Shown here in pieces: positions 12,783 through 61,999 of a DNA stretch of 64,000 nucleotides. A program made the position numbers and the translations under genes. Location: positions 62,001-126,000 of the forward strand of contig CAIPDV010000080.1 of assembly GCA_903863935.1 (NCBI GenBank), given 5' to 3'. Below the pieces are notes generated by a model. The model ran no database searches. It was not told where the DNA came from and worked only from the letters and a program-made list of their open reading frames with translations. Each line of letters opens with the position of its first letter. Position 1 is the stretch's first letter. This DNA comes from an uncultured Bacteroidota bacterium. GTDB taxonomy: Bacteria > Bacteroidota > Bacteroidia > JABEUT01.

Positions 12783-13715
12783 ATGCAAGAGGGGATAGTT
12801 TTAAAATCTTTGGGCCAACTTTATGAGGTGCTGACTAAAAGTGGTGCTGTCGTCAGTTGCACCCTGAAAGGCAACTTACGGATGAAAACCATTACCACCA
12901 CTAATCCTGCGGTGGTGGGAGATACGGTTACCATTGATGAAACAGCACCTAATGAATATGTAATTACTGAAGTAGCTCCTCGCAGAAACTACATTATACG
13001 CCGCTCAAAAAAACTTTCGAAACAGTTTCAAATTATTGCTTCTAACATTGACAGGGTATTTGTTTTGGTGACCATTTCACATCCTAAAACACAAAATTCA
13101 TTTATTGACCGGATACTTACTACTGCCGAGGCTTACCAGATAGATGCCCATTTGATTTTTAATAAAACAGATCTGTATACCGAAAAAAATAAGGCCGACG
13201 CTGAGGAGAGAATTGAAACGTACACCTCCATCGGATATCCTTGCCATTCCGTTTCCTTACTGGATGATAAACAGGTTTCAGACTTAAAAAAATTATTCGC
13301 AAATAAGGTTTCGTTGTTATGTGGAATGTCTGGCACCGGAAAATCAACTCTCATCAATCACCTGGTTCCGGGCATTAACCGGAAGACCGGAATTATTTCC
13401 AAAGCACATAAAAAAGGAACTCACATGACAACCTTTTCTGAAATGATTCCACTGCCAGGAGGAGGCTTCATTATTGATACTCCAGGCATACAGGAATTCG
13501 GATTGGCGGATATAAGCAAGTATGATCTTTCGCAATATTTCCGTGAAATGAACCTGGTTCGCAACAACTGCAAGTTCAATAGTTGCATGCATACCAACGA
13601 ACCCGGCTGTGCTGTGATGGCAGCAGTAGATGAAGGCAGCATTGCTGTTTCGCGCTATGAAAGTTATCTAAGCATGCTCTTCAACGAAGGTGAGGAGGAG
13701 GTGCGATATGATTGA
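12783..13715 (+). CDS. rsgA: Ribosome small-subunit-dependent GTPase A
   Basis: A circularly permuted GTPase that acts late in 30S maturation. The 310-residue protein has an N-terminal OB fold (about 1-70), then G4 (FNKTD), G1/P-loop GMSGTGKSTLINHL (about 181-194) and G3 DTPGIQEFG in the permuted order. A C-terminal zinc knuckle has the ligands in CKFNSCMHTNEPGCAV. Switch region HMTTFSE is present. The start is the ATG at 12783, next to a -7 box. The 3' end overlaps the radical SAM gene by 8 bp, suggesting translational coupling. Confidence 0.93.
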   Translation: MQEGIVLKSLGQLYEVLTKSGAVVSCTLKGNLRMKTITTTNPAVVGDTVTIDETAPNEYVITEVAPRRNYIIRRSKKLSKQFQIIASNIDRVFVLVTISHPKTQNSFIDRILTTAEAYQIDAHLIFNKTDLYTEKNKADAEERIETYTSIGYPCHSVSLLDDKQVSDLKKLFANKVSLLCGMSGTGKSTLINHLVPGINRKTGIISKAHKKGTHMTTFSEMIPLPGGGFIIDTPGIQEFGLADISKYDLSQYFREMNLVRNNCKFNSCMHTNEPGCAVMAAVDEGSIAVSRYESYLSMLFNEGEEEVRYD

Positions 13716-14865
13716 GAACACTCAACCCCAAACCCCTAAAGGGGCTTTAAAGGCAAACCCCTCTACCCAAAGCCCCTTTAGGGGTTTGGGGCAAGAAGGC
13801 CAACCAAACTCAAAAGAATATTTTACAGGAAGAGGTGCACAGGTAAACCCTGCCAACAAGTTTTTAAAGACCTCCTACGTTCAGGAACACTGGGAAGGAA
13901 TAGATGAGGATTCACTCACGGAGAATAAGCAAACACAATATATTGAAGTCTTTCCGAAGACAATTGTCAATAAGGTAGACAGTCCCGATTTAGGAGAATA
14001 CTCCATGAACCCATACCAGGGATGTGAACATGGCTGCCTCTATTGCTATGCCCGAAACACTCATGAATACTGGGGTTATAGTGCAGGAATGGAATTCGAA
14101 CAAAAAATACTGGTGAAGAAAAATGCTCCTCAACTGCTCGAAGAACTCTTTCAAAAACCAAAGTGGGAGCCCCATCCAATCATGTTTTCGGGGAATACAG
14201 ATTGCTATCAGCCGATTGAACGAAAAATGAAAATAACGCGCGGTATGCTGGAAGTATGTTTGAAGTATCGTCACCCTGTCGGGATGATTACAAAAAATGC
14301 GCTCATATTGCGCGATCTTGACATACTTACCGAAATGGCTAAGTTGAAACTGGTGCATGTGATGGTCACCTTTACTTCCCTCGACGAAGACCTCCGGATG
14401 ATTATGGAGCCCCGCACTGTTACTTACAAAAATAGGTTGAAAGTATTAAAACAACTATCGGCAAATGGAATACCATGCGGGGTGATGGTAGCACCAATAA
14501 TACCAACCATTAATAGTTCGCATATACCGGATGTAATTCAAGCCGCTGCGCAAAATGGTGCCACAAAAGCAGGTATGACCATTGTTCGTTTAAACGGACA
14601 AGTCGCTGTTATTTTTAAAGACTGGCTACAGAAAAAATTTCCCGATAGGGCAGATAAAGTGTGGCATCAGATTGAAGCATGCCATGGCGGACAAGTGAAT
14701 GACTCCCGCTTCGGAACCCGTATGAGAGGCGAAGGAAAAATTGCCGAATCAATACATCAATTATTTAAATTATCGGTAAAACGGTTCATAGGGGACTCTC
14801 CTAAATTTTCTTATGACTTATCTATTTTTAAGAGTAAAGGCAAAGAACAATTATCTTTGTTTTAA
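13708..14865 (+). CDS. PA0069-type radical SAM protein with repeat-derived N-terminus
   Basis: A 385-residue radical SAM enzyme. The [4Fe-4S] motif is CEHGCLYCYARNTHEYW (CX3CX2C), preceded by GEYSMNPYQ. Later landmarks are MFSGNTDCYQPIE, RHPVGMITKNALILRD and IVRLNGQVAVIFKDWL. It resembles the PA0069/SplB-like group, whose substrate is not established. The start ATG at 13708 follows GAGGAGGAG and overlaps the rsgA stop. Residues 7-28 (PQTPKGALKANPSTQSPFRG and two more) are encoded by a perfect inverted repeat at 13726-13791, so this tail looks like a tolerated insertion. The conserved part begins near residue 46 (QVNPANKF). Confidence 0.83.
   Translation: MIENTQPQTPKGALKANPSTQSPFRGLGQEGQPNSKEYFTGRGAQVNPANKFLKTSYVQEHWEGIDEDSLTENKQTQYIEVFPKTIVNKVDSPDLGEYSMNPYQGCEHGCLYCYARNTHEYWGYSAGMEFEQKILVKKNAPQLLEELFQKPKWEPHPIMFSGNTDCYQPIERKMKITRGMLEVCLKYRHPVGMITKNALILRDLDILTEMAKLKLVHVMVTFTSLDEDLRMIMEPRTVTYKNRLKVLKQLSANGIPCGVMVAPIIPTINSSHIPDVIQAAAQNGATKAGMTIVRLNGQVAVIFKDWLQKKFPDRADKVWHQIEACHGGQVNDSRFGTRMRGEGKIAESIHQLFKLSVKRFIGDSPKFSYDLSIFKSKGKEQLSLF
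13726..13791. repeat. Palindromic repeat, CCCCAAACCCCTAAAGGGGC family, inside a coding region
   Basis: The 22-bp arms at 13726-13747 and 13770-13791 are perfect reverse complements. The same 22 bp occur once more at 39754-39775 between genes. Each arm contains a near-palindrome CCCCTAAAGGGG. Both arms and the spacer are translated in frame in the radical SAM gene. Confidence 0.92.
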
Positions 14866-37824: not shown

Positions 37825-37849
37825 ATAATTATTGCCAGTCGGGCTCCGA

Positions 37850-39682
37850 CTAGAAGTAACTTACTATTCCAAAGTTAATTTTTCCTGTACTGAAGTTAAG
37901 CGGGTTGCCTTTGGCATTGCCTAAAGCATAATCGAGCGAAAATATTCCAGCCTTTGTCTGGAAGGCCATACCGGCACCAAAACCGCCGGGCGTATCGTTA
38001 TAAAATCCGATTGAAGAAGCAGGAGTCTCTCGGCACCAGGCTTGGTCATAAAACACAAACAGGTATGAATTTTGTTCCAACAGATAATGGAACTCTATTG
38101 TACCAACCGCATATTGCGAGGCATAAATAGATTGCTCATTAAAGCCTCGCAACACTTCTAATCCTCCAATGCGGTAAAGATCATTTAACAAGAGCGAAGG
38201 AGTTTGGATAAATCCTCCATTTACGGCAAACTTAATGGTAGCACGTGTTGCAATAGGGAGATAACAATCGGCTAAAACATGCGCGCGATATTCAATAGAA
38301 CTGAGTTGTAAACCTTCATACACGGAAGGATTAACTGAAGCATTTTCACGAATGGTCCTGTTACCAACTGCCGCTGAACCCAAAAACTCATAACCCCGGC
38401 GGGGATTGTAGATATAATCAAGCCGTCTTATTCTGTATTCTATCCCATATAAATTCGTGGTGCCATCGGTATAAGGTGGTAGTGTAGTAATGTTTTGCAA
38501 TCCCACCGTTGAAAGCAGGCTGGTGATAATACTTTCATAATATACCTCAAGGTAATTTCCACCAATAAAAAGGTATTTCAACCCCAGTTTATTATCTACT
38601 TGCAAGTAGGTAGTGTCCTGCTTGAATAGTTTGAAATCTTCCACCACACCAATTGGTGTTTGAAAAAGATAGGGATAACTGAAATGAACTGCCAGATTTT
38701 GGGTCAAAGGTTGTAAATGCTGCCAGTGAAAACCCAGTTCATCCGCTCTGTGAAAGGCATTCTGTAGTTGCAGGTTTATATCTCCTGTAATGATTACTTT
38801 ACCTGTGCTGTTGGGTAAAATACCCACAATCCCATTAATTTGATTAGCACTTTTTTTAGAAAGATAAAGAAGAATTTTAGCCTTATCGTGAATAAAAACA
38901 ACTTGAATTGGTTTGGTCTCTGTAAGGAATGGCATAGCTTTTAACCGGATGTTCATATCCGCCACTTTCGATTCATCATACAGGTCTCCGGGTTTGAGTC
39001 CGAGGTAACCGTACAGGTATTGCGATGAAAGTTTAAGGTTGCCTACAATCACAATACTATCAATGGTCTCCACCGATTTTTTATCCACCTTAAGCGATGC
39101 TGAAATGGTATTGCCTTTGATTCCAATACTGTCTAATTTTATTTTGGCAAAAGGATATCCGTGGTTCTCATAAAAGGAAAGAATACGGTTCATCAGCTTG
39201 GCTGCCGTTTTATAATAGAATGACTTACCGCGAAATATTTTATCGCGAAAACCAGACAAGCTAAGTGCGGCATCTTCCACATTGCCTTTCCTTAAATACG
39301 CCCATTGATATGATGCTCCGGGCCTCAGAAACGCTGTAAGCCTGGTACTGTCCATAACTGTGCTATCGACTGTCGCTGTGAGGTAGGACATGTCATGCAA
39401 ATTGGATAACAGAGTTTGAAGCTCTTGTTGCCTTTCTTTTGTTGAATAGAAAATTTTAGAATAATCTGGCATCTTGAAACCCTTAATGGATGCAGAATCC
39501 AGGTTAACCACTTTAAGGAATAGTTTTTTCCCTAATGGGGCTTGAACAACCTTAGGTTGAATAGAATCTTTCTTTATCGTTACATTTTTCTTTTCTGCCA
39601 CAGAATCCTTCTGAGCCTGTATATTGACCATACAGGTTAAACACAAAATAAAGATAAGGATATTATGTTTGATGTTTGGCAC
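37850..39682 (-). CDS. Omp85/BamA-type outer-membrane protein with POTRA region
   Basis: A 610-residue protein with a signal peptide ending VNIQAQ, a linker, POTRA-like domains (about 95-290; SIGIKGNTISASLKVDKKSV, YGYLGLKPGDLYDESKV, FLTETKPIQVVF) and a C-terminal barrel. The RGF-type motif is GLEVLRGFNEQSIYASQYAV, and the last strand ends in INFGIVSYF. Shorter than BamA, it is closer to TamA-like or accessory Omp85 proteins. The role in barrel insertion or protein translocation is inferred. Confidence 0.78.
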   Translation of the reverse strand: MPNIKHNILIFILCLTCMVNIQAQKDSVAEKKNVTIKKDSIQPKVVQAPLGKKLFLKVVNLDSASIKGFKMPDYSKIFYSTKERQQELQTLLSNLHDMSYLTATVDSTVMDSTRLTAFLRPGASYQWAYLRKGNVEDAALSLSGFRDKIFRGKSFYYKTAAKLMNRILSFYENHGYPFAKIKLDSIGIKGNTISASLKVDKKSVETIDSIVIVGNLKLSSQYLYGYLGLKPGDLYDESKVADMNIRLKAMPFLTETKPIQVVFIHDKAKILLYLSKKSANQINGIVGILPNSTGKVIITGDINLQLQNAFHRADELGFHWQHLQPLTQNLAVHFSYPYLFQTPIGVVEDFKLFKQDTTYLQVDNKLGLKYLFIGGNYLEVYYESIITSLLSTVGLQNITTLPPYTDGTTNLYGIEYRIRRLDYIYNPRRGYEFLGSAAVGNRTIRENASVNPSVYEGLQLSSIEYRAHVLADCYLPIATRATIKFAVNGGFIQTPSLLLNDLYRIGGLEVLRGFNEQSIYASQYAVGTIEFHYLLEQNSYLFVFYDQAWCRETPASSIGFYNDTPGGFGAGMAFQTKAGIFSLDYALGNAKGNPLNFSTGKINFGIVSYF

Positions 39683-39753: not shown

Positions 39754-39775
39754 CCCCAAACCCCTAAAGGGGCTT
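39754..39775. repeat. Single arm of CCCCAAACCCCTAAAGGGGC family
   Basis: 22 bp identical to the left arm at 13726-13747. It stands 5 bp before a CGTCATTGCGAGG-family element. No second arm is present. Confidence 0.9.
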
Positions 39776-39780
39776 CCAAT

Positions 39781-39867
39781 CGTCATTGCGAGGCTCCGCG
39801 AAGCAATCTCATAAAATACGCATGCAATTTTTAGGGTAAGATTGCTTCGCGGAGCCTCGCAATGACG
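39781..39867. repeat. Palindromic interspersed repeat, CGTCATTGCGAGG family, copy 2
   Basis: Perfect 29-bp arms at 39781-39809 and 39839-39867 (CGTCATTGCGAGGCTCCGCG plus AAGCAATCT). The segment 39831-39868 on the minus strand matches the 38-bp insert in aroC with one mismatch. It starts 8 bp after the flippase stop. Confidence 0.95.
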
Positions 39868-44362: not shown

Positions 44363-44436
44363 AGAGATTGCTTCGCGGAGCCTCGCAATGACGTATTAAC
44401 GCTATGTTCGTCTTTGCGAGGAACGAAGCAATCTCT
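44363..44436. repeat. Palindromic interspersed repeat, CGTCATTGCGAGG family, composite copy
   Basis: The left arm 44363-44393 is the GCGGAGCC subtype (as at 39781-39867); the right arm 44409-44436 is the GAGGAACGAAG subtype (as at 2904-2995). Outer parts pair, the inner parts differ, so this copy combines two variants. Confidence 0.85.
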
Positions 44437-60877: not shown

Positions 60878-61999
60878 ATGCCCGGCAATTCATTTGGAGA
60901 ACTATTTAGTATTACGACTTTTGGTGAATCTCACGGTGCAGCTATTGGAGTTATTATTGACGGCTGCCCTCCCGGATTAGCCTTATCTGAAAAGGATATT
61001 CAGCCCGACCTTGATCGCCGAAAACCCGGTCAGAGTAAAATCACTACTCAAAGAAAAGAAGAAGATGCTATTCATATTCTCTCCGGAGTATTTAATGGAA
61101 AAACTACCGGCACACCTATTATGTTGATGGCGTATAATAAAGATGCAAATCCGAAAGATTATGAAAAACTAAAAGACCTCTATCGCCCATCCCATGCCGA
61201 TTATACCTATGATTTAAAATATGGTATTCGCGATTGGAGAGGTAGCGGAAGAGCGAGTGCAAGAGAAACTTTAGCAAGAGTAGCGGCTGGTGCCATTGCA
61301 AAAAAATATTTGAAAGAAAAATGCGGAGTAGAATTTCTGAGCCATGTGGTGCAGATTGGTACAATCCGCGCTGATATTGACATGCAAAAGGTAACATCAA
61401 AAGCCATTGATGCAAGTTTAGTGCGTTGTCCTGATAAATCTGCATCTGACAAAATGCTGAAATTAATTGAAGAAGTCCGTAAGGAAGGTGATTCAGTTGG
61501 TGGAATTATTCGCGGCTTGGTTCGCAATGTGCCTCCCGGTTTAGGCGAACCAGTATTCGATAAACTTCCCGCTGATTTAGGCAAAGCCATGCTAAGTATT
61601 AACGCCGTAAAAGGTTTTGATTTCGGCTCGGGCTTTGGTGGTTCAATCATGCGTGGCAGCGACCATAATGATGAATTCATCCTATCGTCATTGCGAGGCT
61701 CTGCGAAGCAATCTTACCCTAAAGGCAGCAAGAATATTACGACCAAAACCAACAATTCCGGCGGAACATTAGGTGGCATCTCCACCGGAGAAGATATTTA
61801 TTTCCGGGTAGCATTTAAGCCTGTAGCAAGCATTGCACTTCAACAAAATACCGTCACCCGTTCCGGAAAAGCAACTAAGATTTCTGTTGAAGGAAGGCAT
61901 GACCCTTGTGTTTTACCAAGGGCAGTGCCTATTGTAGATGCTATGGCTGCCTTAGTTTTAATGGACCATTATTTGAGGAATAAGGCGCAGAACGGGTAG
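60878..61999 (+). CDS. aroC: Chorismate synthase with an in-frame repeat insertion
   Basis: Converts EPSP to chorismate with reduced FMN. The 373-residue protein starts MPGNSFGELFSITTFGESHG at 60878; the open frame upstream overlaps aroD and is not used. Motifs: DRRKPGQSKITTQRKEED, DWRGSGRASARETLARVAAG, GSGFGGSIMRGSDHNDEF, TKTNNSGGTLGGISTGEDI and RHDPCVLPRAVPIVDAMAAL. Residues 270-281 (SSLRGSAKQSYP) are encoded by a 38-bp interspersed repeat, in a position where the usual enzyme has a short loop between DEF and the TxTNNSGG motif. The frame and catalytic motifs are intact, so the product is probably active. Confidence 0.93.
   Translation: MPGNSFGELFSITTFGESHGAAIGVIIDGCPPGLALSEKDIQPDLDRRKPGQSKITTQRKEEDAIHILSGVFNGKTTGTPIMLMAYNKDANPKDYEKLKDLYRPSHADYTYDLKYGIRDWRGSGRASARETLARVAAGAIAKKYLKEKCGVEFLSHVVQIGTIRADIDMQKVTSKAIDASLVRCPDKSASDKMLKLIEEVRKEGDSVGGIIRGLVRNVPPGLGEPVFDKLPADLGKAMLSINAVKGFDFGSGFGGSIMRGSDHNDEFILSSLRGSAKQSYPKGSKNITTKTNNSGGTLGGISTGEDIYFRVAFKPVASIALQQNTVTRSGKATKISVEGRHDPCVLPRAVPIVDAMAALVLMDHYLRNKAQNG
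61685..61722. repeat. CGTCATTGCGAGG-family repeat arm inside aroC
   Basis: 38 bp starting TCGTCATTGCGAGGCTCTGC and ending CTTACCCTAA. It matches positions 39868-39831 (minus strand) with one mismatch. Only one arm is present. Confidence 0.95.

Follow-up and report, generated by a model that had tools for sequence, protein, structure and literature searches.

Near the start of a gene for a radical SAM protein in an uncultured Bacteroidota bacterium lies an inverted repeat, which raises the question of whether such a sequence is part of the encoded protein and how it came to be there. The window analysed here is a stretch of 64,000 nucleotides from a draft genome of 3.76 Mb, referred to as G000. 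The repeat is very probably a copy of a selfish, genus-specific, non-autonomous mobile element, a REPIN-shaped and RPE-like coding palindrome of Bacteroidota that is tolerated in genes. The original prediction concerned the repeat in one gene; its facts largely held, and the repeat proved to be one case of a genome-wide phenomenon.

The repeat is composed of two arms on the plus strand, arm 1 (13726..13748, CCCCAAACCCCTAAAGGGGCTTT), which consists of the conserved tag CCCCAAA and the small hairpin CCCCTAAAGGGG, and arm 2 (13769..13791, AAAGCCCCTTTAGGGGTTTGGGG), its reverse complement. The spacer between them (13749..13768, plus strand) is free of stops in the frame of the radical SAM gene. The arms are 100% complementary, as had been proposed, over 23 nt and not 22 bp, and the description as a complete palindrome applies to the arms only, the 20-nt spacer being non-palindromic. 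The single-stranded hairpin sequence of the element is CCCCAAACCCCTAAAGGGGC, and the 66-nt RNA of this copy is predicted to fold at -45 kcal/mol (z = -5.9). The 20-nt arm core has three matches in the window (13726+, 13772- and 39754+) against 0.01 expected from shuffles. The third belongs to a second copy with one arm (39754..39775, plus strand), where the same 22 bp had been reported between genes; the match was confirmed and lies outside any long ORF.

Distribution and structure of the element

The arm is present in G000 in 64 copies at three or fewer mismatches, and in 38 by a near-exact pattern; most are arranged in inverted pairs with lengths of 60-84 bp. A 60-bp near-palindrome, CCCCAAACCCCTAAAGGGGCTTTGAATAGYRCTATTCAAAGCCCCTTTAGGGGTTTGGGG, is the full form seen most often. 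The element was found in most genomes of the genus, all compared as draft assemblies of which several are incomplete, and its exact form was missing from all 49 genomes surveyed outside the genus; low numbers of one-mismatch variants (CCCCCAACCCC... and CCCCAACCCCC...) are present in some further families of the class. A search of Rfam with the element returned no family, only spurious miRNA-type hairpin matches far below the cut-off.

Each arm consists of the tag CCCCAAA and its own small hairpin, and a pair of arms forms a REPIN-like long hairpin. The arms vary independently, and other hairpin types can stand in for one of them: type B, AAAG[TCCGCC..GGCGGA]TTTGGGG; type C, AGTCGGGCTCCGACT; and type D, TCCCGCAATCTCTGCGGGA. 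Such differences extend to orthologous sites within genes: the radical SAM and ABC genes carry A-A copies in G000 and A-B and A-D copies in G005, the nearest sampled relative, and the GT28 and MtaB sites of G005 hold partly decayed type C hairpins. These arm differences would reflect either exchange of an arm in place or re-insertion at the same spot. A type C hairpin (AGTCGGGCTCCGACT) was also observed at 37837-37851 of the window, outside any long ORF.

The terminal inverted repeats, dispersed copies and small size would also suit a classical MITE, whose termini are recognised by the DDE transposase that moves it. However, no target site duplication above chance was detected for k=2-9 in 66 dimers, and arms that each contain an internal hairpin and vary independently are as in REP/REPIN-type repeats, which makes a classical MITE unlikely. 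Read outward from either end, the junction consensus is GGGG|YWRA, and when the flanking positions were tested for an extended palindromic target, only the first base pair was found to co-vary (R:Y, z = 3.6).

The N-terminus of the radical SAM protein

The radical SAM gene (13708..14865, plus strand, 385 aa) belongs to the PA0069 family, with a score of 479.6 bits against the NCBIfam profile NF033668 (cut-off 360). It follows rsgA, encoding ribosome small subunit-dependent GTPase A (12783..13715, plus strand), whose stop overlaps the radical SAM start codon by 8 bp (ATGATTGA). The repeat begins 10 bp past the end of rsgA; the overlap once ascribed to the repeat is that of the start codon. Translation from the ATG at 13708 reads MIENTQ-PQTPKGALKANPSTQSPFRGLG-QEGQPNSKEYFTGRGAQ..., in which the element accounts for residues 7-28 exactly as predicted. 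The profile match begins at residue 41. In an AlphaFold2 model built from 52 aligned sequences, residues 1-42 are predicted to be disordered (pLDDT below 50), and much of the core exceeds 90.

The hairpin starts at nucleotide +19 of the gene, so that its placement in the translation initiation region was partly right. Nucleotide +19 lies just beyond the usual ribosome footprint. With a very stable fold so near the start codon, numerous further copies between genes, and a TTG at 13786 within arm 2, the repeat could be read as an untranslated regulatory hairpin (an attenuator, an mRNA stabiliser or a device of translational coupling), with the real start downstream. That TTG is, however, the sole alternative start nearby: no in-frame ATG, GTG or TTG occurs from 13792 to the conserved GRGAQ motif, and the next in-frame ATG is M100, part of the conserved motif MNPYQGC. 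G002, G005 and G007 all retain the ATG that overlaps rsgA, and two of them (G002 and G007) do so with no repeat present. Elsewhere the same element stands in frame within the body of enzymes, where it is necessarily part of the mRNA. An untranslated hairpin is therefore improbable.

Homologues that share the tail and lack the repeat were looked for among the relatives, and none was found: G002 has the same rsgA overlap followed by a short tail without the element (MNHEVIEIKPKEYFGGMGAQ), the tail of G007 is unrelated, and G001 and G008 have almost none. Judged from the reading frames, the upstream ATG at 13708 is by far the best candidate for the start. Because no in-frame start follows the repeat before the conserved domain, the repeat is very likely translated, in agreement with the earlier proposal that it lies within an expressed gene.

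In-frame copies in conserved genes

In-gene copies were identified by translating around each copy, and the host ORFs were assigned with NCBIfam and Pfam. At least seven further G000 copies lie in frame inside conserved proteins, namely CysS, NadE, MtaB, BshC, an ABC ATPase and two glycosyltransferases. Internal positions are occupied in MtaB, NadE, the DppD/F-like ABC ATPase, the PMT_2 and GT28-type glycosyltransferases and CysS, and the copy in BshC is a single arm. Terminal copies were found in GldB and the radical SAM protein, both at the N-terminus, and in RimO, at the C-terminal end. The hosts in G005 are an ABC ATPase, an RlmI-like methyltransferase, CtaA and a C-N hydrolase, and the host in G008 is FolK/HPPK. 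From either strand, the encoded peptide is PQTPKGAL(N/S)S..QSPFRGLG, since stops interrupt both remaining frames of the common form. The central part of BshC (L145 332-2071) also has a tandem peptide repeat (NPTPLVKQGV...), which may be a further insertion of a repeat.

Alignments with relatives from the genus revealed empty sites in NadE, CysS, GT28, PMT_2, MtaB, the RlmI-like protein and the C-N hydrolase, and the radical SAM site is empty in G002. The cleanest example is the RlmI-like gene, in which the flanks of G000 and G005 share 93% amino-acid identity and the net difference is 66 bp. In most host genes, the insertion edges differ from relatives by several codons, and therefore the exact mobile unit is uncertain. 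Several in-gene sites are common to G000 and G005, and those in the ABC and BshC genes are probably also present in G002, whose ABC gene retains a collapsed relic of the element, still in frame. Such shared sites might be taken for the copies of one ancestor, amplified only by gene duplication or recombination without transposition, but this is very improbable, since the host genes are unrelated, the NadE and CysS sites are occupied in G000 but not in G005, and the RlmI-like and C-N hydrolase sites are filled in G005 only.

Of the 57 copies in G000 and G005, 20 lay within ORFs of 150 aa or longer, against 2 of the 79 from sister genomes (Fisher p=3e-7), where G000 copies had been seeded at three or fewer mismatches and those of other genomes by near-exact arms, and where some of the 20 placements lie near ORF termini (e.g., L147, L176, L183 and L193) and may be untranslated. 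The element in the sister genomes of the genus is thus almost only intergenic. Phase 0 is used by 20 of the 22 ORF-embedded copies. Dimer length follows the same division: 18 of 29 dimers in G000 and G005 are exactly 60 bp and 24 are multiples of three. In the sister genomes the lengths are scattered, 11 of 32 dimers being divisible by three, and most dimers have stops in every frame. Non-coding copies of 60 bp are also present; this length would therefore stem from the source copy, and not solely from selection in each gene.

The preferred explanation, a mobile coding palindrome, can be outlined as follows. The element consists of two inverted 20-nt REP-like units, each with a CCCCAAA tag and a small hairpin, separated by a spacer of about 20 nt. 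In G000 and G005 its common form is stop-free, 60-66 bp long and a multiple of three, and can therefore sit in genes, but only in phase 0. Copies entering exposed loops or tails in this phase would survive as insertions of 20-22 aa, and in the radical SAM gene such an insertion would have extended the N-terminus just past the rsgA overlap. The other insertions fall where relatives vary in length, which, together with the modelled disorder of the radical SAM tail, fits insertions that are tolerated and near-neutral in disordered parts or loops. A bolder extension is possible, though doubtful: within this one genus, a REPIN-type selfish element may have moved its niche from intergenic regions into genes through a stop-free 60-bp master copy, its length divisible by three and a single frame open on each strand, and may still be active there, its arms replaced with the frame kept, continuously rewriting the loops of essential enzymes.

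Comparison with known repeats and a second repeat family

Protein-coding palindromes have been considered largely typical of Rickettsia and Wolbachia, and intragenic REPs are scattered elsewhere. The Rickettsia palindromic elements (RPE) and their Wolbachia counterparts (WPE) are palindromic repeats located both in intergenic DNA and, in frame, within conserved ORFs that are unrelated to one another (PMC2229807, PMC10969869). The present element is likewise found both in intergenic regions and in several unrelated conserved ORFs, the same palindrome being read throughout in one frame (phase 0, as above). It differs from RPEs, as these are described, in its phylum and its size (about 60-66 bp versus 105-150 bp), and in arms that each hold a small hairpin of their own and are exchangeable.

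REPINs are REP doublets that form hairpins, are extragenic and adjoin their cognate RAYT gene (PMC3116915). The element resembles them in its architecture, a short variable spacer between two inverted REP units that each contain a hairpin, in its tens of dispersed copies, and in single units that look like remnants. An extragenic location holds for the sister genomes, but not for G000 and G005, where about a third of the copies lie in ORFs. A cognate RAYT gene with the same REP was sought, and an element arm stood beside none of 37 RAYT-type Y1_Tnp loci sampled in ten draft genomes of the genus with 4-5 mismatches allowed; the locus L048 shows one weak 5-mismatch arm match, and none of the seven Y1_Tnp genes of G000 is flanked by an arm. 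The survey thus linked no transposase to the element. One of these loci, L270 (G000:C46:28309-28647), is flanked by its own paired REP, CCACGACCTTTAGGTCGTGG, and could represent a functional REP/RAYT system of the genus. The favourite mobiliser of the element is an HUH/Y1 (RAYT-like) transposase, which would act in trans on the single-stranded hairpin.

REPs tagged with GTAG or CGTC, including intragenic ones, are known in several species (PMC3733652). They share with the element the short tagged hairpins, the homo- and heterodimers and the occurrence of some copies within ORFs; the tag CCCCAAA and the junction YWRA set the element apart. Nematomorph mitochondria contain coding palindromes in the form of long perfect inverted repeats of up to 284 bp that are apparently actively maintained (PMC6649704). 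These too are inverted repeats translated within genes, whereas the element is one short dispersed sequence family whose old copies decay. A full-text search of open-licence papers yielded no description of such elements in Bacteroidota.

The element would thus place a short, sequence-defined repeat of this kind in another phylum, inside genes for tRNA synthetase, NAD synthase and tRNA modification. Taken together, the empty sites, the decayed copies and the sister lineages with intergenic copies only may offer a direct view of a selfish repeat becoming compatible with genes and of new protein segments arising. For annotation, tails or loops of the type PQTPKGAL...SPFRGLG should be regarded as probable inserted DNA and not as domains.

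The same genome contains a second repeat family that behaves like the CCCCAAA element in lying in frame within genes, the CGTC-type repeat CGTCATTGCGAGG. Two such repeats are within genes, aroC and nadE. In aroC (chorismate synthase, 60878-61999), the repeat (61686..61712, plus strand) covers about residues 270-278 and reads ...NDEFILSSLRGSAKQSYPKGSKNITTKTNNSGG.... The nadE gene (L152 / L365, G000:C74) carries two different palindromic insertions, one of the CGTC type (PSLRGSAKQSLS) at about residue 294 of the ORF and one of the CCCCAAA type at residue 511. The two families also occur together. At L149 (1463-1589), a CGTC-type dimer is nested in the spacer of an intact CCCCAAA element, and in the window the single arm at 39754 is followed by a head-to-head CGTCATTGCGAGG pair (39781..39867, plus strand), so that the segment 39754-39867 resembles this arrangement after loss of the second arm. 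Head-to-head CGTCATTGCGAGG pairs were also observed at 2919-2980 and 44381-44421 of the window, the former within an open frame that precedes what is probably a secreted protein.
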